Source: Entoloma clypeatum (lineage: Eukaryota > Basidiomycota > Agaricomycetes > Agaricales > Entolomataceae). Taken from it: a DNA stretch of 64,000 nt. The notes under the pieces are model-generated. The model saw only the letters and a list, made by a program, of their open reading frames with translations. It made no database searches and had not been told where the DNA came from. Shown here in pieces: positions 23,464-62,982 of this stretch (position 1 is its first letter; each line of letters begins with the position of its first letter). Location: positions 5,022,001-5,086,000 of the forward strand of contig OY751486.1 of assembly GCA_963565915.1 (NCBI GenBank), given 5' to 3'. Both the position numbers and the translations under genes were made by a program.

Positions 23464-25088
23464 ATGCCCGCCCTCCGCGTCCGCGATACCCAGCCCCGTT
23501 GTGAGTAAACCATCAATCAGCTCGATCATGGACGAGGGTTAGATACGATGAGCTCACCTCCCTCTAGCACTCGAAGTGACGACCGACGCGCCCCAGCTCC
23601 CCATCGTTTCCATCGTCTCCCCAACGCCACGCGCATTCGCTTTCCCGATAAACCACAACTTCAGCGCCGAGCCAAACAGTCCCTACTCTTCTCCATCCCA
23701 TTCGCCCTTTGAACCCGACCTCTGTTCCCTCGCTTTATCTTCATCATCATGTGTAACACCTCCCCCACCACAAGCGCCCCTTATCATGCGCACACTTTCT
23801 CCAGACACTGCTTTCTCATCCTCACCCTCCTCCACTTCACCATCACACAAACGCAGAAAATCATCATGCAGCAGCGATTTTGGCGACCGTCGACCAAAGA
23901 AGGGCGACGAGGATTACATCAAACGCCCAGAGAACGCGTTCATCCTTTTCCGCCGCAAATGCTGCGAGGACCGACAAGCCGCTCTGGAAGAGGCTTCGTC
24001 CCCGTCGAAGAAACAGCGTCAAGCCGACCTGTCGAAAACCATCAGTCAGCAGTGGAAGGGTCTCAGCGCAGAGGAGAGACAGTACTGGGAACAGTTGGCG
24101 AAGGAGAAGAAGAAGGAACACGAGCTCAAATATCCTGATTATGTTTACAGGCCCCAGCGCGCGAAGGACAAGGACGGCCGACCGAAGCCTAGAAAGCTTA
24201 AGCGGGGCGACGTAGAGGATGAGGTGGACAACATTACCGTTGGTGTTCCCAATCTTCACCATCAGCGCCATCATGGCCGCTCGTTGTCTGCACCGACCCC
24301 GCCTCCGTACCAGACGATCCAGATCCCGAACGTCTACCAGATGACGCCTTCGTGCCCGACTTCCCCTTCCTTGCTCCCAATGATCAGCCGTCGATCGTCT
24401 CACCCCGACTACGCCGAGGATCCCCTCGCACACTTTGACTATATTCCGAACGACAACTTTTCCTTCGGACAGGCAGGGCAGCTAGAGGCTAGCCTTCAGG
24501 TTCGTGTTTCCTGTTTTCGCAGTACGATCGTGTGCTGATAGGCTTTTCCAGTCTTCAGAGTTTCTACGAAGCATGTTCAGCATGTCCGCCCCATGCGACC
24601 CGTTGCACCCACTAGAAATCACGAGCGAGTCTATGCTCCTCCCGCCGCTCAGCATCGTCTCTCCTGGGTCATCCATCTCCTCAGGTCCCTCGTCGCCAAC
24701 CTCGGAGCTCTTCACGCCACACTCTGGCCTCCTCATCCCGTCATTCTCCCGCCTCACGACCTCCGAGACCTCCGAGCAGCAGCGAGTCCCAACCCAGGCG
24801 GAGCTCGACCTCCAGATGGAGATGCAGCTGCAGCAGGAATACGCTGGGTACACCTGGGAGACCAACTCGATGTGGCCCACAAACTCCGAGCTTCTCCTGA
24901 GCGACGACTTCGACATGGGCGCCATCCCGCCTATCGAGCTCGGCGTGCACAAGTACCACGACCAGCTCGTCGTTCCGGACCTCGGGTACGGCCAAATCTT
25001 TGTCGAAGGCCGCCCGTTCCCTGAAGAGAGCCAAGCACTTGACCCGATTCTTGCATTCGACGAGATGATGGGCGGGCGCGGTTTCTGA
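23464..25088 (+). CDS. HMG-box transcription factor, first copy
   Basis: Nuclear sequence-specific regulator. Exons 23464-23500, 23568-24499 and 24552-25088, all with GT-AG borders, give about 500 residues. The short first exon MPALRVRDTQPR joins to LEVTTDAPQLPIVSIVSP. A Ser/Pro-rich region and a basic stretch (SHKRRKSS) precede the HMG box at about residues 120-200: YIKRPENAFILFRRKCCED, then KQRQADLSKTISQQWKGLS, AEERQYWEQLAKEKKKEH and ELKYPDYVYRPQR. A basic GRPKPRKLKRG follows. The C-terminal half is acidic and Ser/Pro/Gln-rich, typical of an activation domain. In basidiomycetes such proteins act in mating and development (Ustilago Prf1 and Coprinopsis Pcc1 are known examples), but which orthologue this is cannot be decided here. 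A second HMG-box gene lies at 47546-49234. Confidence 0.88.
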
Positions 25089-33780: not shown

Positions 33781-35350
33781 ATGGCGTTTGCTACTCATCT
33801 GCTTCTCCTCACGGCCTTGCTTGCCACCGCTGTCGCTGCTCCCGCTTCCGGGATTCCCAAAGCCCCGTTGGTCGTGACGCTCGGTCTGTCTGGCGATATG
33901 AAGAACATAAAGGCAGATGTGACGAACACTGGTGCAGACGTGAGCAGTACAATTGTCCTTGTATGATTTCCTCTAGCTGAGATTTCTCCTAGTCACTTGA
34001 TGTAATCACCCTCCACACGCCTCTTTCTACAGACGATCAGGGAGGCTATCAGGTGTCTGACAAAACTAGGATGCTCACCTTCCAAGGTCTTATCAAGTAG
34101 GTTCCATGGTAAATGCTTCTGCTGCTAAATCTAACAAGCTTTGAGGGCCTACATCACGTCAAACCTTTCTGAATTCCACCAGACGATAACCCCTGGTAAG
34201 ACGGTGACGACTCTTTGGCCTCTGAGCCTATTCGATTTCACGAATTCGACCGGACCGTACCATGCCTCGACATCGGGAATTTTCCAATACCGTCCAACCA
34301 GCGCAGATGTGGACTCAGACTACATACTCGGTGAATATGAATCAAACGACCTTCAATTCCCGAATGCCCCTCCTAGCACCCAAACCCGCGGCAACGAGTA
34401 ATTATCCTAATCCTTGACCACAAACGCTACGGCTAATCCTCCTTAAAGCGCTGTACTCGTGTACACTGAGGGCTGTATCCAAAGTCGAGCGGATTACATC
34501 AACGCGGCTGGCTCCGACTTTGGGCAGTTGGCAGATGCTGGAGTCGAGTAGGTCCCCGCCCTGCGGTACTTTCCGTCGCCATTTCTCATACTTCTTTTGT
34601 GAACTCCGAAGCGCGCTCAATGGTGGCCAGGATACCGCATTCGCAGAATTTTTTGGAAAGAATGTCAGCCCCGCAGCATACCGAACTGTGACCAGCAAAT
34701 TCTTCGATCTGCAAGGGGCCAAGAAATATGCCAATACTCAAGAGCAGCAACCGCTGACATTCTCGTTCTCGTGCAATGACCGCATCGGAGGCTGCAGACC
34801 AGGTGTGGGGGCGTATGTTAAGAATCCTGAGGCGAATGTGGTGACATTCTGTGCCCTCTTCTTCACGCCGAGAGTGATTGCACTCAGCTACTTGTGCTCG
34901 ACGCCGACTTATCAGCCAAGTAACGACGGTTATTCCTACCGGGGTACGCACATGTGCTACTGTGGATGCGAGTGCTACATTCTCACACATTGACACAGGA
35001 GCTATCCTTCTTCATGAATTCATGCATCTCGAATATGTCATGAGGTCGCAGCCTTTCAAAGGTATGAAATAAGCGTGTGCTTTTAGATCAGGTTCTCACC
35101 ATGATCGCTTCCAGATGAAACGAACAACAACGGGAACAAGGTAACCGTTATGCAGAATCTCAGTGCGACGGGGTATTAACAGTTATCTACTGCATCGCAC
35201 TTCGGCCAGGCGTATGGGTACGCTGCATCTAAGCTTCTGGCAACCCAAAACCCCGCCAAAGCCCGTAAGAATCCAGAGAACTACAAATACTTTGCTGAGG
35301 TAGAGTATGCGCGCAAACGCGGTGGGGCTTGCTCAAAGGACGAGCTCTGA
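33781..35350 (+). CDS. Secreted M35 (deuterolysin-type) metalloprotease ending in KDEL
   Basis: Zinc endopeptidase of the aspzincin family with a signal peptide (MAFATHLLLLTALLATAVAA) and a propeptide. Six or seven exons read in frame; exon 1 is 33781-33960. Segments in order: KTRMLTFQGLIK, SNLSEFHQTITPGKTV, PLSLFDFTNSTGPYHAS, then the mature part VLVYTEGCIQSRADYINAAG, GGQDTAFAEFFGKN, FSFSCNDRIGGCRPGVGAYV, IALSYLCSTPTY, GAILLHEFMHLEYV with the zinc-binding HEFMH at 35013-35027, then KDETNNNGNKAYGYAASKLL and NPENYKYFAEVEYA. The last intron (gtaacc to cggccag) removes an apparent stop. The Asp after HEFMH (FKDET) is the likely third ligand, in a divergent context. The protein ends CSKDEL followed by TGA, an ER-retrieval-like tetrapeptide. 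Unit B holds a dead copy. Confidence 0.82.
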
Positions 35351-37211: not shown

Positions 37212-38777
37212 ATGGCGTTTGCTACGCATCTGCTTCTCCTCACGGCCTTGCTTGCCACCGCTGTCGCTCCCGCTGCTCCCGCTTCCGGGATCCCAAAAGC
37301 CCCGTTGGTCGTGACGCTCGGTCTGTCTGGTGATATGAAGAACATACAGGCAGATGTGACGAACACTGGTGCAGACGTGAGCGGTACAATTGTATAACTT
37401 CCTCTAGCTGAGATCCCTAGTCACTCGATGTAATCACCCTCCACACGCCTCTTTCTACAGACGATCAGGGAGGCTATCGGGTGTCTGACAAAACTAGGGT
37501 GCTCACATTCCAAGGTCTTATCAAGTAGGTCTCATGGGAAATAGATCGGCTGCTAAGTCTAACGAGCTTCGAGGGCCTACATCACGTCAAACCTTTCTGA
37601 ATTCCACCAGACGATAACCCCTGGCAAGACGGCAACGACTCTTTGGCCTCTCAGCCTATTCGATTTCACGAATTCGACCGAACCGTACCACGCCTCGACT
37701 TCGGGCATATTCCAATACCGTCTAACCAGCGCAGATATGGACTCGGACTAAAAACTCGGTGAATATGAATCAAACGACCTTCAATTCCCCCATGCCCCTC
37801 CTAGCATCGGAACCCGCGCCAACGAGTGATTATCCTAACCCTTGACCACAGACGCTACGGCTAATTTCCGTTACAGCGCTGTACTCGTGCACACTGAGGG
37901 TTGTACTCAAAGTCAATTGGATTACATCAACGCGGCCTGCTTCGACTTTGGGCAGTTGGCAGATGCTGGAACCTAGTAGGTCCCCGCCCTGTGGTACTTC
38001 CGTCGCCATTCCTCATACCTATTTGTGAACTGTGAAGCGCACTCACTGGTGGCCAGGATACGGCATTCGCGGAATTCTTTGGAAAGACAGTCGGCCCCGC
38101 AGAATACCGAACTTTGACCAGTAAATTCTTCAATCTGCGGGCAGCCAAGACATTTGCCAACACTCAAGAACAGCAGCCGTCGGTATTCTCGTTCTCGTGC
38201 GATGACCGCATCGGACGCTGCAGACCAGGTGTGGCGGCATATGTTAAGGGTCCTGATGCGAATGTGGTGACATTTTGTCCCGCCTTTTTCACGTCGAGAG
38301 TGATTGCGCTCAGCTACTTGTGCTCGACACCGACTTATCAGCCAGGTAACGACGGTTATCTCTACCGGGGTACGCACATGTGCTGCTGTGATGCGAGTGA
38401 TACATTCTCACACATTGACGCAGGAGCTATCCTTCTTCGTGAATTCCTGCAACTCGAATACGTCATGAAGTCGCACCCCTTTAAAGGTATGCCCTGGAAT
38501 AAGCGTGTGCCTTCAGATCAGGTTCTCACCATCACTTTCAGATGAAACGAATAACAACGGGCACAAGGTGAGTTTTATTCAGAACCTCAGTGCGATGGGG
38601 TATTGACGGTTACCTACTGCATCGCACTTCGGCCAGGCATATGGGTATGCTACATCCAAGCTTCTGGCAACCCAGAACCCCGGCAAAGCCCGTAGGAATC
38701 CAGATAACTACGGATACTTTGCTGAGGTGGAATACGCGCGCGGGCGCGGTGGCGCTTGCTCAGGGAGCGAGCTCTGA
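37212..38777 (+). pseudogene. M35 metalloprotease, inactivated duplicate
   Basis: Same exon order as 33781-35350, with the signal peptide and most introns kept. Damage: a TAC to TAA change makes a stop at 37749-37751 (DSD-stop where unit A reads DSDYILGEY), and the zinc motif HEFMH has become REFLQ at 38438-38452, removing both zinc histidines. The C-terminus reads CSGSEL in place of CSKDEL. Conserved parts such as IALSYLCSTPTYQPGNDGY are still easy to align. Even with read-through it could not bind catalytic zinc, so it is a pseudogene by two independent lines. Confidence 0.85.
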
Positions 38778-47545: not shown

Positions 47546-49234
47546 TCAGAACATGCGCATGGTAGAGGGGTCAAACTCCATATCCATCCCGAACGCGTCG
47601 TTGCCGACCATCTGCAGGCCCGAATCGCCCGGACCGACCCCCACACCGCCCAAGGCACCGAGGGCCTGCATAGCGGCGTCAAACGAGGTCTTGGGGTAGC
47701 CCGCCGTCAGATCCACGTTCATCATCTCCATGTCCATGCCCTGGTGCGTGAAATCGAGACCCAGAGTGGTCGGGTCGAACTGCCTCCACAGCTCGAGGTC
47801 CGCGGGGAACGTCGCAGAGGTGGCGGACTGCGGTTTGGGCGCGAAGACTTCCATGCCGGCGGTGGGGGGCAAAGGCAGGATAGCGATGGAGGGCGGCGGG
47901 GAGGGTGAATATCCTGATGAGCTCGAGGGGGTGGGAGGGATGTGGTAGTGCTGGTGCTCATGCACGTGGCCCTGGGTCTGGATCTGGAACAGGTCCTGCA
48001 TGGATGGATCATCGCCCATCCATGACAGGGGGTCGATGTCGGATGTGGTGCAGGTGGGAGGGCTACTGAAGAGGTGTTGGACGTGGTGAGGGGCGAGGGA
48101 GGCGTCGAATGAGCCGCCATCGGACGAGGACAGCACGCGGTTGTCGAAGACGGGGAAGGTCGAGCCGAGGCGGAAGGACGGGTCGAAGAGGGAGCTGTTG
48201 ACGTCCGGGAGGGGCGAGTCGTCTCGCTGAAGTGATTCTGGGACGACGATGTCCGTGGGGAAGGTCCAGGAGCGCGTCGGGTAAGGCCCGGCGCTGGAGG
48301 GCCGGCGGGCACCGAGACTGCTGCGGAAGGAGGATGGGGCGTCGGTGTTGAATGCGGTGGAGAGGAAGGGCGCAATGGGGAGGGTGAGGGTGGGTGTTGT
48401 GAATGGAAACTGGGGGTAGTATTCGTTGGGGAGGGGCACGGAGGACGGCCGGCGGGAGCGGTAGTGGTGGCGTGGTAGGTCAAACAGCTGTTGCTGCAGT
48501 TCCTGTGGGGACCGCCTGAGATCGAGGCTCCTCACAGCAGCCGCAAGCTCGTCGCCCTTCTTGCCCTCAAGCAAGAGCTGTGCGACCTCCTCGCACCTCC
48601 GCTCATCCTCGACGGTCGTCGGGGGCTTCTCCTTCTTGTCCTTATTCTTGTTCTTGTTGTGCACGGGCTTGAAGCGGTACTCTGGGTATCTGATCTTGTG
48701 CTCTGTCTTCGCGTGCTTGGCCTTCACCTCCCAGATCTTCTTCTCCTCTAGGGGAAGGGCACGCCAGCAGTTGCCGATGATCTTGGAGAGGGAGCCGTGG
48801 TTCGTCTCGATCGTGCCGGGGACGTGTTTTTGCCGGACAAAGTCGGCGCGGAAGAGCATGAAGGCATTTGGGGGGCGCGGGATGTAGCCGAGGGAGCGCC
48901 GCTTTCCTGGCGGACATCGGCGGCGGGCGGGAGGGGGTGCGGGTGTTTCTGAAGGGGGGAAGATGGCCAAGGGGGCTGCATCGGCGGGGGAGCCGGAGGA
49001 GGGGGAGCCGGGGTCGGAGGTGGATGGGGAGTCAGAGTCGTCGTGGTAGGATATGGGTGTGACGTTGGGGGCGAACGTGACGGGTCGTGAGATGCCGTAG
49101 ATGCCAGCTTTTGCAGGTTGGAACGCAGCTGAAGAAAAAACATCAGAAATGGCGGAGGTTTATTTGGATGGAGAGTTACTGAGAGAAAGTGATGACCGGC
49201 GTCTTCGTAGCGGTAGTCGTCCAGCTGCTGGCAT
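47546..49234 (-). CDS. HMG-box transcription factor, second copy
   Basis: Two exons, 49180-49234 and 47546-49128, give 545 residues. The short first exon (MPAAGRLPLRRRRSS) joins to TAFQPAKAGIYGISRPVTF, and the frame runs through PADAAPLAIFPPSETP, so the internal Met at 48970 is not the true start. The HMG box lies at about residues 80-160: YIPRPPNAFMLFRADFVRQK, HVPGTIETNHGSLSKIIGN, CWRALPLEEKKIWEVKAKH and RYPEYRFKPVHNKNKNKDKK. An acidic, Pro/Ser-rich tail of about 300 residues with DLFQIQTQG and short aromatic motifs (LELWRQFDP) suggests activation. The MATA_HMG-like box places it with fungal mating/development regulators. It is clearly a different subtype from the gene at 23464 (RPPNAFMLFRADFV against RPENAFILFRRKCC). 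No orthologue name is assigned. Confidence 0.88.
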
Positions 49235-56941: not shown

Positions 56942-56948
56942 TATATAA
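56942..56948 (+). promoter_or_regulatory. TATA box of the Trp/Pro peptide precursor
   Basis: TATATAA, 79 bp before the ATG at 57021. Confidence 0.55.
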
Positions 56949-57020: not shown

Positions 57021-57879
57021 ATGCGTGCTATCATTACCACTTTCCTCATCGCCGGCGTCATGACCGCTGTTCGTGCTGCACCTATCGTGAGTATCTCTGG
57101 AATACCTTCCGAAGTCTGTTAACACCATCCGTATCTGCAGGACTCTTCTGACTTCGCTGTTGTAAGCAATAGTCATGAATTTGCAAATTACTTCTTGGAA
57201 TCCTCAACTATTTCATAGGATGGCGCTCCTCCCTGGAAACGTGGGGACATCGCCTGGAAGACAACGGTACGCGATTCTAACGTCATACAACGCTTATCAG
57301 GAGATTCTGATGATAAGCTACAGGACGGAGCTTCCCCCGGGAAACGTGAGGCTGCGGCTTCAAAATCGAATACAGTGCGCGAAACCTGCCTCTTTGATTA
57401 TGTCTGATATCTTGACCTCTAATTTTTAGGATGGCAGTCCAGGCTGGAGACGTGACGCAGGCTGGCAAGAGCAACGCTCTGGCGAAAGAACTGAATTGGC
57501 TCGAGCAATCGTACGTAGCATGTTTTCCATTCTTTCCTGGGCCTCACCACTCCTTCATGCAGGATAACGTCGCTGAGCAACACGGGAACAAAGCAAACAC
57601 CGTACGCAATCCAGTAAAATACGTATCAAGCGAACTAACCTGATACACATATAGAATGGCGCTCCATGGTGGAAACGCGACGACAATTGGGACAACAAAG
57701 GCACTGCTAGTGACTTTATTCGCGAAGTTGCTCCCACTCATGTTGATGCTATCCCTACTGCGCCGCCGTGGAAGCGCGAGCAACACGCGTCTGCAGGTGC
57801 TACATGGCCCCCTGGGTGGAGAAGGAATTCACTACCCGCTCCCGTACAAGGTTCGACCAATGGTGCCCCCAATTGGTGA
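57021..57879 (+). CDS. Secreted multi-peptide precursor with Trp/Pro cores and dibasic sites
   Basis: About 176 residues in seven exons: 57021-57086, 57141-57161, 57219-57266, 57324-57374, 57430-57510, 57563-57601, 57655-57879; all introns GT-AG and phase 0. Exon 1 is a signal peptide (MRAIITTFLIAGVMTAVRA, then APIDSS). Most later exons begin with Asp/Asn: DGAPPWKR, DGASPGKR and DGSPGWRR each open their own exon, and the last exon holds NGAPWWKR, PTAPPWKR, WPPGWRR and a terminal NGAPNW. The KR or RR after each core is a Kex2-type cleavage site; spacers are Ser/Ala/Glu-rich. Expected products are short aromatic/proline peptides such as DGAPPW and NGAPWW. No CaaX motif, so it is not a lipopeptide mating pheromone. 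The precursor resembles Kex2-processed RiPP and KEP precursors in layout, but no dikaritin core or UstY-like oxidase is seen nearby. A Trp core in DGASPGKR is lost, which suggests decay or diversification. Confidence 0.8.
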
Positions 57880-59491: not shown

Positions 59492-59590
59492 TCCTTCGAA
59501 CCGGGGTCGAACCAGTGACCTTGGGATGTTGTGAATCAGATTGTGTTTCCTATTACAGTCCCACGCTCTTCCAACTGAGCTATCGAAGGA
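59492..59590 (-). tRNA. tRNA-Tyr (GTA) with an intron
   Basis: Read on the minus strand. The acceptor TCCTTCGA pairs with the terminal TCGAAGGA, and the D arm is GCTCAGTTGGAAGAGC. The anticodon stem TGGGA pairs with TCCCA and encloses CTGTAA plus an intron of about 25 nt, directly after the anticodon region as in eukaryotic tRNA-Tyr. The variable loop is AGGTC; the T arm ACTGG-TTCGACC-CCGGT matches. CCA is not encoded. Confidence 0.93.
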
Positions 59591-61238: not shown

Positions 61239-62759
61239 TCAACGCCCGCCTTCCGCCTCCAGCAAGCGATAAAGGTCAGCAACCAAATACAAACTCCCCG
61301 CAACGACAACCAGCTCCGACACCGCTCCTTCCTCCTCTCGACGCAAAGACGCAGCCCACTCCAACGCTCTCTCCAGCTCCCACGTCATGGACCCCTCCCG
61401 CGCCTCTGCCGGCACCTCATCAGAACCCCACACCCGTACATCAGGAACCAGATCCCTCACGACCTCGCGCACCACCCCGGGCGGGACGGCCTTGACCCAC
61501 GGCATCCCCCCGGGCGGGGTGAACGTTACGCACGCGACGTTCACGTTGATGCGCACGTTCGCGGTGGGGTGTACGGAGGGCGTGGGCGGGAGGAGGGGGG
61601 AGAGGGTTTGGAGGGGCGTCTTTGGCGGCGAGTGGGAGAGGGCGAGGATGTAGGTAAGGTAAACAGTTATGTCGGGGGCTGCATTTGCGGGGGAGGGTGA
61701 GACGGTGGAGAGGAGATGGTCTATGTAGGACGAGAGCGTAGCTGCTGAGGCGGGGTTGTGTGCACCGTCTGCGAGAACGATGAATGGGCGTGATGGGTGT
61801 GGACCGGGGCGGGTTGGGACAGGGACGGTGTGGAATGAGAGGCGTCCGGGCCAGCGGGTGTTCTTGATACCCTCCGCGAGAGTCGTCGGAGTGATGCGTT
61901 TTGCGAGACGGAGGCCGGCACTCGCGGCGTGATGGTGAGTTAGGAGGGCTGAAATGCCTGCGATGGCGGTTCGGAGGTTGTCGATCTGGTGTTCACCGTA
62001 GAGCGGTAACAATGCTAGAACTGGTTCGTCGAAACAGGGAGCGTATATCGTCACTGGCTGCGGCGCCGGTTCCGTGAAAGGCACGCTGGACAACGAAAAC
62101 GGTGCTGGTTTTGGTCCATCTACTGTCTCATCCCACTGGCGTTTCTCCACCAGGACGGCCTCTAGAAGCTGGCCCCCCACCTTCTCGACAACTTCTTGAA
62201 GGACCTCCTCCACCTCGGCGTGCTTTTGAGGACCAAGAATGAACGGCCGGCCGTGTCGTGCGATTCCCGCCTTCTCCCTGGCAATCTCCGAGACGGTAGA
62301 ACCCAGGAATGCTTGATGGTCGAGATCGACAGCAGTCAAGAGCGATACGGCAATCGCTTCGTCTGGCATGATGTTCGTCGCATCCAAGCGTCCGCCCAGG
62401 CCCACTTCCACGACGGCGATGTCCACCTCCGCTCCCTCGAAGATGTGGAACGCTGTCAGGACGAGCATTTCAAAGTTGGTTAGTTGGGTCTTGAACTCCT
62501 TGTCTGCGGCTTTGACCAGCGCCAGTGCGGTGTTGTAGGAGGAAGGAAGGATCGGTCTGTTGTCGATTGTGATGCAGTCGTAGACGGAGGTGAGGTGGGG
62601 ACTGTTGAAACGTCCGACGGAGAGGGAGGAGGATTGTAAGATGGTGGAAAGCAGGGAGGAGACGCTGCCTTTGCCGTTTGTACCTGCTACGTGTAGTGTT
62701 GGGCGGGTGTACTTGTGCATTAGACGGCTGAGTCTGTCGAGGCTAAGATCAATCGACAT
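61239..62759 (-). CDS. FOL3: Dihydrofolate synthase (Mur-ligase family)
   Basis: ATP-dependent ligase that adds L-glutamate to dihydropteroate to make dihydrofolate in folate biosynthesis. Single exon, 506 residues, complete. Visible: N-terminal DLSLDRLSRLMHKYTRPTLH, P-loop HVAGTNGKGSVSSLLSTIL, SVGRFNSPHLTSVYDCI, EMLVLTAFHIFEGAEVDIAV, VEVGLGGRLDATNIM, the family stretch DHQAFLGSTVSEIAREKAGI, then IDNLRTAIAGI, NTRWPGRLSF and the C-domain VLADGAHNPASAATL. Yeast separates dihydrofolate synthase (Fol3) from folylpolyglutamate synthase (Met7). The short N-terminus starting at LSLDRLSRLM and the HQAFLG motif favour Fol3, but the distinction is by pattern only. A His/Ala-rich insert (LLTHHHAASAG) and long Pro-rich loops near 330-400 are local features. 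Confidence 0.9.
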   Translation of the reverse strand: MSIDLSLDRLSRLMHKYTRPTLHVAGTNGKGSVSSLLSTILQSSSLSVGRFNSPHLTSVYDCITIDNRPILPSSYNTALALVKAADKEFKTQLTNFEMLVLTAFHIFEGAEVDIAVVEVGLGGRLDATNIMPDEAIAVSLLTAVDLDHQAFLGSTVSEIAREKAGIARHGRPFILGPQKHAEVEEVLQEVVEKVGGQLLEAVLVEKRQWDETVDGPKPAPFSLSSVPFTEPAPQPVTIYAPCFDEPVLALLPLYGEHQIDNLRTAIAGISALLTHHHAASAGLRLAKRITPTTLAEGIKNTRWPGRLSFHTVPVPTRPGPHPSRPFIVLADGAHNPASAATLSSYIDHLLSTVSPSPANAAPDITVYLTYILALSHSPPKTPLQTLSPLLPPTPSVHPTANVRINVNVACVTFTPPGGMPWVKAVPPGVVREVVRDLVPDVRVWGSDEVPAEAREGSMTWELERALEWAASLRREEEGAVSELVVVAGSLYLVADLYRLLEAEGGR

Positions 62760-62982
62760 GATGGTGGTCAGAAGGAAGTTATCACCTCGGCTTTTACATT
62801 ACTTTCACATAGCACACTATATTTGGATGCTTGGCATGTCTCAGACATTCCATTTTTAGCCCGACGTCAGCCCTGCGCCTATAAAAGCCGCCAGGAATGA
62901 GCGATAAAATCCCCATCCCTTCAGGACTTCTCTACTCAATCTATTCCACACTCTCTTATAACACACACTCTTTTATTTCACG
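62760..62982 (+). promoter_or_regulatory. Divergent promoter with TATA box at 62880-62887
   Basis: Shared 223 bp between dihydrofolate synthase (leftward) and the His-rich repeat precursor (rightward). TATAAAAG lies 103 bp before the rightward start at 62983. A pyrimidine-rich leader follows, as in strongly expressed fungal genes. Confidence 0.6.

Follow-up and report, generated by a model that had tools for sequence, protein, structure and literature searches.

A candidate KEX2-processed repeat protein of Entoloma clypeatum with short, mostly Trp-ended cores and phase-0 exons

Gene structure and conserved segment ends

We analyzed a stretch of 64,000 nucleotides from the agaric Entoloma clypeatum (assembly GCA_963565915.1, contig OY751486.1, C2:5022001-5086000; hereafter, the window), and in particular a gene at positions 57021-57879 of its forward strand. 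The spliced frame of this gene encodes a precursor of 176 residues, which includes 11 Trp and 15 Pro, neither Cys nor Tyr, and which appears to be of the type referred to as KEX2-processed repeat proteins (KEPs). Seven exons are predicted, all of them in phase 0 and each with a length divisible by three. The six introns, of 52-57 bases, all follow the GT-AG rule, and the joined frame has no internal stop. These features confirm the location and the seven joined exons that had been proposed in a first-pass annotation of the same DNA. About 70 bases upstream of the start codon, a TATA-box-like TATATAA can be recognized by eye (56942-56948, +).

Exon 1 (57021-57086, +; 22 codons) encodes the predicted leader, MRAIITTFLIAGVMTAVRAAPI, whose hydropathy peaks at 2.48 over residues 3-11. 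It is followed by exon 2 (57141-57161, +), which encodes DSSDFAV and contains no core. Exons 3 (57219-57266, +), 4 (57324-57374, +) and 5 (57430-57510, +) provide, respectively, the core DGAPPW-KR, the degenerate, Trp-less core DGASPG-KR, and the core DGSPGW-RR. Exon 6 (57563-57601, +; DNVAEQHGNKANT) is again coreless. Lastly, exon 7 (57655-57879, +) encodes NGAPWW-KR, PTAPPW-KR, WPPGW-RR and the C-terminal NGAPNW, followed by the stop codon TGA. The precursor thus consists of a leader and seven segments, six of which end in KR or RR, and one at the stop codon. Every core named in the first-pass annotation is found in the spliced frame; its phrase 'one core per exon', however, describes only exons 3-5, since four cores share exon 7 while exons 2 and 6 lack any, and the cores that open their own exon number four (DGAPPWKR, DGASPGKR, DGSPGWRR and NGAPWWKR) rather than three.

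Because these cores begin their own phase-0 exons, exon skipping could alter the mixture of peptides while leaving the frame intact. Retention of an intron would introduce an in-frame stop in four of the six cases, and a frame shift in a fifth (57511-57562); the intron at 57267-57323 causes neither, so that its read-through is possible in principle. Over their first 24 bases, exons 3, 4, 5 and 7 are 58-79% identical in the six possible pairs (the 99.9th percentile for random pairs is 58%). We also considered whether these core exons descend from one another together with their introns, and rejected this idea, as the 45 bases that precede them are only 20-40% identical. There is, therefore, no sign of recent exon duplication.

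The seven segments end in the pentapeptides GAPPW, GASPG, GSPGW, GAPWW, TAPPW, WPPGW and GAPNW. When the residues after the leader were permuted 200,000 times, no permuted sequence reached Trp at six of seven segment ends (the exception being GASPG), and none placed Pro within three residues before the terminal W or G in all seven; six dibasic sites occurred in 186 of these permutations. In a second test the residues were shuffled inside each segment. At the C-terminal end, the five final residues scored 54 for similarity between segments, where shuffles averaged 8.8 and none of 100,000 attained 54. At the other end, the five opening residues are at chance level, their score of 11 being reached in 5,295 of 20,000 shuffles. 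Thus, conservation resides in the pentapeptide at the C-terminal end of the Kex2 fragments.

At the DNA level, pairwise comparison of the six core units gives differences of 0.46, 0.29 and 0.57 at codon positions 1, 2 and 3, whereas the corresponding values are 0.66, 0.60 and 0.78 for their downstream flanks, and 0.73, 0.69 and 0.80 for those upstream. Where two core units have the same residue, its codon differs in 33 of 51 pairs; that is, amino acids rather than DNA have been conserved between cores. We regard this pattern as an indication of selection and not as a measurement of it, given that the six units belong to one gene, are not independent and are compared without orthologues.

Searches for relatives and a second precursor

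Two protein searches of about 5.8 billion proteins yielded no homologue at E <= 10; both required shared five-residue words and may thus overlook rapidly evolving relatives, and the second scored a single candidate. The precursor has no Pfam match at E <= 0.5, and no sequence in the PDB matches it at E <= 1. Six of its core strings occur in no open-licence paper in PubMed Central (PMC), although an unnamed entry in supplementary KEP tables is conceivable, and no open-licence PMC paper combined the terms KEX2-processed, exon, repeat and fungal. The designation 'apparently undescribed' in the first-pass annotation therefore stands for the sequence within the reach of these searches; it does not extend to the kind of gene, KEPs being known.

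The whole assembly, of 60.1 Mb in 20 contigs, was also searched. At the protein level no second copy of the gene was detected; the search returned five stretches of its own exons and one match with an E-value of 5.4. A DNA pattern for DGAPPWKR, with up to three mismatches, occurs at 31 places (21 forward and 10 reverse; 6 and 6 in the control), three of which are the window gene itself. In 14 of the remaining 28 places, translated in the three frames of the matching strand (part of one place, L015, being N), no leader with repeated cores was found, and a scan of these 14 for core-opening exons gave two chance-like matches, in L003 and L019. Pairs of W-KR motifs separated by 10-40 are found at 124 places, versus 50 in the control, and are dominated by dispersed repeats. 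For gaps of 41-71 there are 83 places, below the control value of 138. With an added P the number is 10, versus 8, and for gaps of 71-101 it is 11, versus 9. Since only some of the pattern places were examined, further KEPs may exist elsewhere in this genome.

One of the W-KR pairs with a gap of 41-71 led to a second KEP precursor, on contig C15 (C15:370470-370992, or L085:3971-4493); this precursor and that of the window are also included in the pairs with an added P and in those with gaps of 71-101. Its predicted gene has three putative phase-0 exons and encodes 132 residues. The cores, namely TAPGW, GAPGW (twice), VAPSW and AVADW (twice), are all in the last exon. As in the window gene, the first exon comprises 22 codons and ends at a phase-0 intron, the second begins with Asp, and cores of the form APxW precede RR or KR. 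The C15 precursor differs from that of the window in that it has only three exons, confines its cores to the last, carries AVADW cores, and includes XA/XP spacers of the Ste13 type (APAPAPAPEP, EA). Its AVADW cores resemble the AADW endings of Lentinula and Pleurotus peptides. As a side observation, the C15 precursor unites -APSW and -ADW endings, which have been reported from separate precursors in other mushrooms. A search of the genome with the last exon of this gene retrieved the exon itself and two weak matches (E-values of 0.056 and 1.24); we set both aside, because neither, when read in three frames, showed a leader followed by repeats between Kex2 sites. A common origin of the window and C15 precursors is suggested by the core, the leader length and the intron position that they share, but is not proved, the BLASTP match between them being weak (E-value of 0.020). 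And because the C15 precursor carries the same tail, both may feed into a single role, in signalling or in biotic interaction.

Assignment to the KEPs and alternative explanations

KEPs are described as secreted precursors in which repeats lie between Kex2 sites (PMC6339444, PMC7329392). A census reports 7,878 of them, of which 5,318 fall into 838 types; the other 2,560, about a third, have no homologues (PMC7329392), so that an orphan KEP is not unusual. Among the defining features, an N-terminal signal peptide is indicated for the window precursor by hydropathy only. Cutting after KR and RR produces seven fragments, where at least four fragments of at least two residues are asked for, and the repeats make up 20% of the protein (seven times 5 of 176 residues), where the minimum is 15% (PMC6339444). 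A motif common to at least three fragments exists if the C-terminal pentapeptide is considered, as the shuffling inside segments indicates, but none emerges from an approximation of the whole-fragment grouping, by which the C15 precursor is rejected as well. A stricter definition asks for at least three tandem repeats of at least eight residues (PMC7329392); the conserved unit here is of five residues and a dibasic pair. Trp precedes the dibasic site or the stop in six of seven segments, which is the feature of agaricomycete KEPs with C-terminal Trp. Two other signatures are lacking: the XA/XP (Ste13) dipeptides that recur in alpha-pheromone-like KEPs follow only two of the six sites here (EA, DA), and Tyr, through which a dikaritin core would be cross-linked, is absent from all 176 residues. 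We thus file the gene, on the basis of three defining features found in its predicted product, as a KEP, and, for want of Tyr and of a regular Ste13 signature, neither as a dikaritin nor as an alpha-pheromone-like KEP.

Comparison with known systems, made by description in the case of Coprinopsis cinerea (C. cinerea), is in line with this assignment and shows that the statement in the first-pass annotation that the cores match no family was too strong: the precursor is laid out as described for KEPs (PMC6339444, PMC7329392), and agaricomycete KEP peptides with C-terminal Trp have been observed by mass spectrometry (PMC9769878). According to the latter source, GPPAPSW and DDDPEGPPAPSW are native C. 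cinerea peptides detected in the fungus, whereas QYKAPSW and QMRPPSW, from C. cinerea KEP 490115, were obtained by expression in P. pastoris; SGTGEASAADW of L. edodes and SGVAADW of Pleurotus were detected in the fungi themselves. BLAST with KEP 490115 is reported to return numerous basidiomycete KEPs that combine Ste13 motifs with a C-terminal Trp (PMC9769878). C. cinerea KEPs 447393 and 490115 are, like the window gene product, agaricomycete secreted precursors, and their published peptides end in A/P-P-S-W, with Pro two residues before the terminal Trp (PMC9769878). Unlike the window precursor, KEP 490115 has Ste13 dipeptides ahead of its cores, and the peptides of KEP 447393 come from a non-repetitive C-terminus. 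L. edodes KEP 2599 and Pleurotus KEPs 1091723 and 1439342 give linear, secreted peptides with C-terminal Trp in fruiting bodies (PMC9769878), as we propose for the window gene, but their cores end in -AADW, and KEP 2599 is described as a sevenfold repeat of one peptide. The alpha-pheromone precursors of ascomycetes likewise have a leader, Kex2-bounded repeats and Trp-bearing peptides (PMC6339444, PMC7329392), and differ from the window precursor by their regular Ste13 spacer.

The Kex2-bounded repeats of a secreted precursor are also the layout of the dikaritins (precursors of ustiloxin, phomopsin and asperipin), in which UstYa (DUF3328) proteins cut out the cores and cyclise them. The dikaritins known so far are cross-linked through Tyr, and a precursor without Tyr or Cys speaks against this kind of product. 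A profile search of the genome gave no match to UstYa, though the control genomes were silent too, so its absence is not established; nor was UstYa found among the 29 Pfam-scanned frames of the 90 non-overlapping window frames of at least 100 residues, from which split exons could escape, and five matches to HxxHC in six window frames are scattered over different parts of the window. Yet DUF3328 genes are described near 22% of KEP genes (PMC7329392), and 16 UstYa-like genes are reported in Pleurotus (PMC8893723). On balance we deem a dikaritin-type precursor very unlikely. Accordingly, where the first-pass annotation envisaged a Kex2-processed multi-peptide precursor or a ribosomally synthesized and post-translationally modified peptide (RiPP), the secreted multi-peptide layout is upheld, and a modified RiPP finds no support.

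Somewhat less improbable, though still unlikely, is that the gene encodes a small secreted protein that functions uncleaved, whose W/P-rich motifs are binding repeats and whose KR and RR pairs are incidental. The long and variable linkers would fit such a protein, and the searches gave no homologue in which processing can be seen; however, it is the five residues ahead of each dibasic site, rather than the five behind it, that are conserved, six dibasic sites are rare in permuted sequences, and the absence of Cys means that no fold could be held by disulphides. Least probable of all is that an over-fitted splice model has joined segments that are open by chance, or the exons of a pseudogene in decay. 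The Trp-less core of exon 4, the missing homologues and a splice model made from sequence alone are what one might expect in that case, but not seven exons that share one phase, are separated by uniform introns and join without an internal stop, nor cores that keep amino acids rather than DNA, nor another such gene on C15.

The reading we favor, with a probability of about 0.83, is that the predicted window gene encodes a KEP, of the precursor type and with the processing proposed here. Several observations weigh against it. Two segments, of 31 and 38 residues, are longer than is typical of tidy KEPs; an XA/XP dipeptide (EA, DA) follows only two of six dibasic sites, so that there is no repeated Ste13 signature; one core, in exon 4, lacks Trp; and the gene, known from DNA, found no homologue in either protein search. 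In addition, an approximation of the Le Marquer grouping (whole-fragment FIMO) yields no pattern shared by at least three fragments, although it rejects the C15 precursor as well, and the BLASTP match between the two precursors is weak. We take the gene to be real; its sequence is apparently new, and its kind, the KEP, is known.

Kex2 cleaves after KR and RR. In the proposed mechanism the leader would guide the precursor to the secretory pathway; cleavage after each KR or RR would fall to a Kex2-type protease, and removal of both basic residues to a Kex1-type carboxypeptidase. The primary Kex2 fragments, numbered from residue 21, would be of 15, 14, 15, 38, 31, 14 and 17 residues, and the predicted products of Kex2 and Kex1 include PIDSSDFAVDGAPPW, EAAASKSNTDGSPGW, EQHASAGATWPPGW and NSLPAPVQGSTNGAPNW. 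The products of 5-8 residues expected in the first-pass annotation would not arise from Kex2 directly; as no dibasic site precedes the D/N-G cores, they require further trimming from the N-terminus, which some of the secreted peptides may indeed undergo and for which a parallel has been published. The outcome would be linear peptides that share the C-terminal pentapeptide (G/T)-A-P-x-W, presumably the part under selection, and that might act in signalling or in interaction with other organisms. The genome encodes domains of the proteases needed. The profile search gave two matches to P_proprotein (Kex2-type), near each other on C5; one region on C6 matching DPPIV_N (Ste13-type) in three adjacent pieces, with a best E-value of 3.8e-52; and 23 matches to Peptidase_S10, the family to which Kex1 belongs, all of these assignments being at the level of the domain family. 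Beside the gene structure, the dibasic sites, the conservation confined to segment ends, the second precursor and these protease-domain genes, all of which can be read in the DNA, we infer the expression, secretion, processing, linearity and role of the peptides; linear, secreted peptides ending in xAPxW are the most likely product.

Possible significance and genomic surroundings

The functions of basidiomycete KEPs are described as unknown; six C. cinerea kep knockouts are reported to show no phenotype in axenic culture, and synthetic KEP peptides no antibacterial activity (PMC9769878). We tentatively suggest, as a possibility with the odds against it, a family of secreted agaric peptides that would owe their activity to a shared (G/T/V)-A-P-x-W tail, recognized by one receptor, and that would come from precursors unlike each other, one of them Ste13-spaced, the other with several cores that open their own phase-0 exons and could be varied by exon skipping. 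If so, signalling akin to that of alpha-factor would exist outside mating in Basidiomycota. Two unlike precursors with the same APxW tail in one genome would hint at the residues that carry activity, and their redundancy may mask the phenotypes of knockouts. The window gene would also exemplify KEPs that combine short cores with long, variable linkers over mini-exons, and that screens for whole-fragment repeats may miss, judging from the approximated grouping.

Elsewhere in the window, a folylpolyglutamate synthase-like frame (61242-62798, -) finds, among the best 120 of 7,998 matches, its highest-ranking named counterparts in agarics, being 58% identical to a protein of Lyophyllum shimeji and 59% to one of Asterophora parasitica, with two further proteins at 70%. 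A transfer RNA (59492-59589, -; Rfam RF00005, 54 bits), missed by ARAGORN in bacterial mode, is 98 bases long and therefore probably contains an intron. HMG-box proteins (PF00505) are encoded at 47549-49159 (-; E-value of 6.8e-12), some 8 kb away from the gene of interest, and at 23552-24535 (+; 1.2e-10). Two frames resemble M35 metalloproteases weakly, with scores that fall short of the curated cut-off; they are located some 18-22 kb away from that gene, at 34418-34990 (+; PF02102, E-value of 0.0012) and 38036-38542 (+; PF14521, 9.7e-7). Finally, the dispersed sequence TGGAGGCGCTGCAGGCTAAGCTCGCGGAGGTGGAGGCG occurs in many near-identical copies on many contigs, and is probably part of a transposable element.
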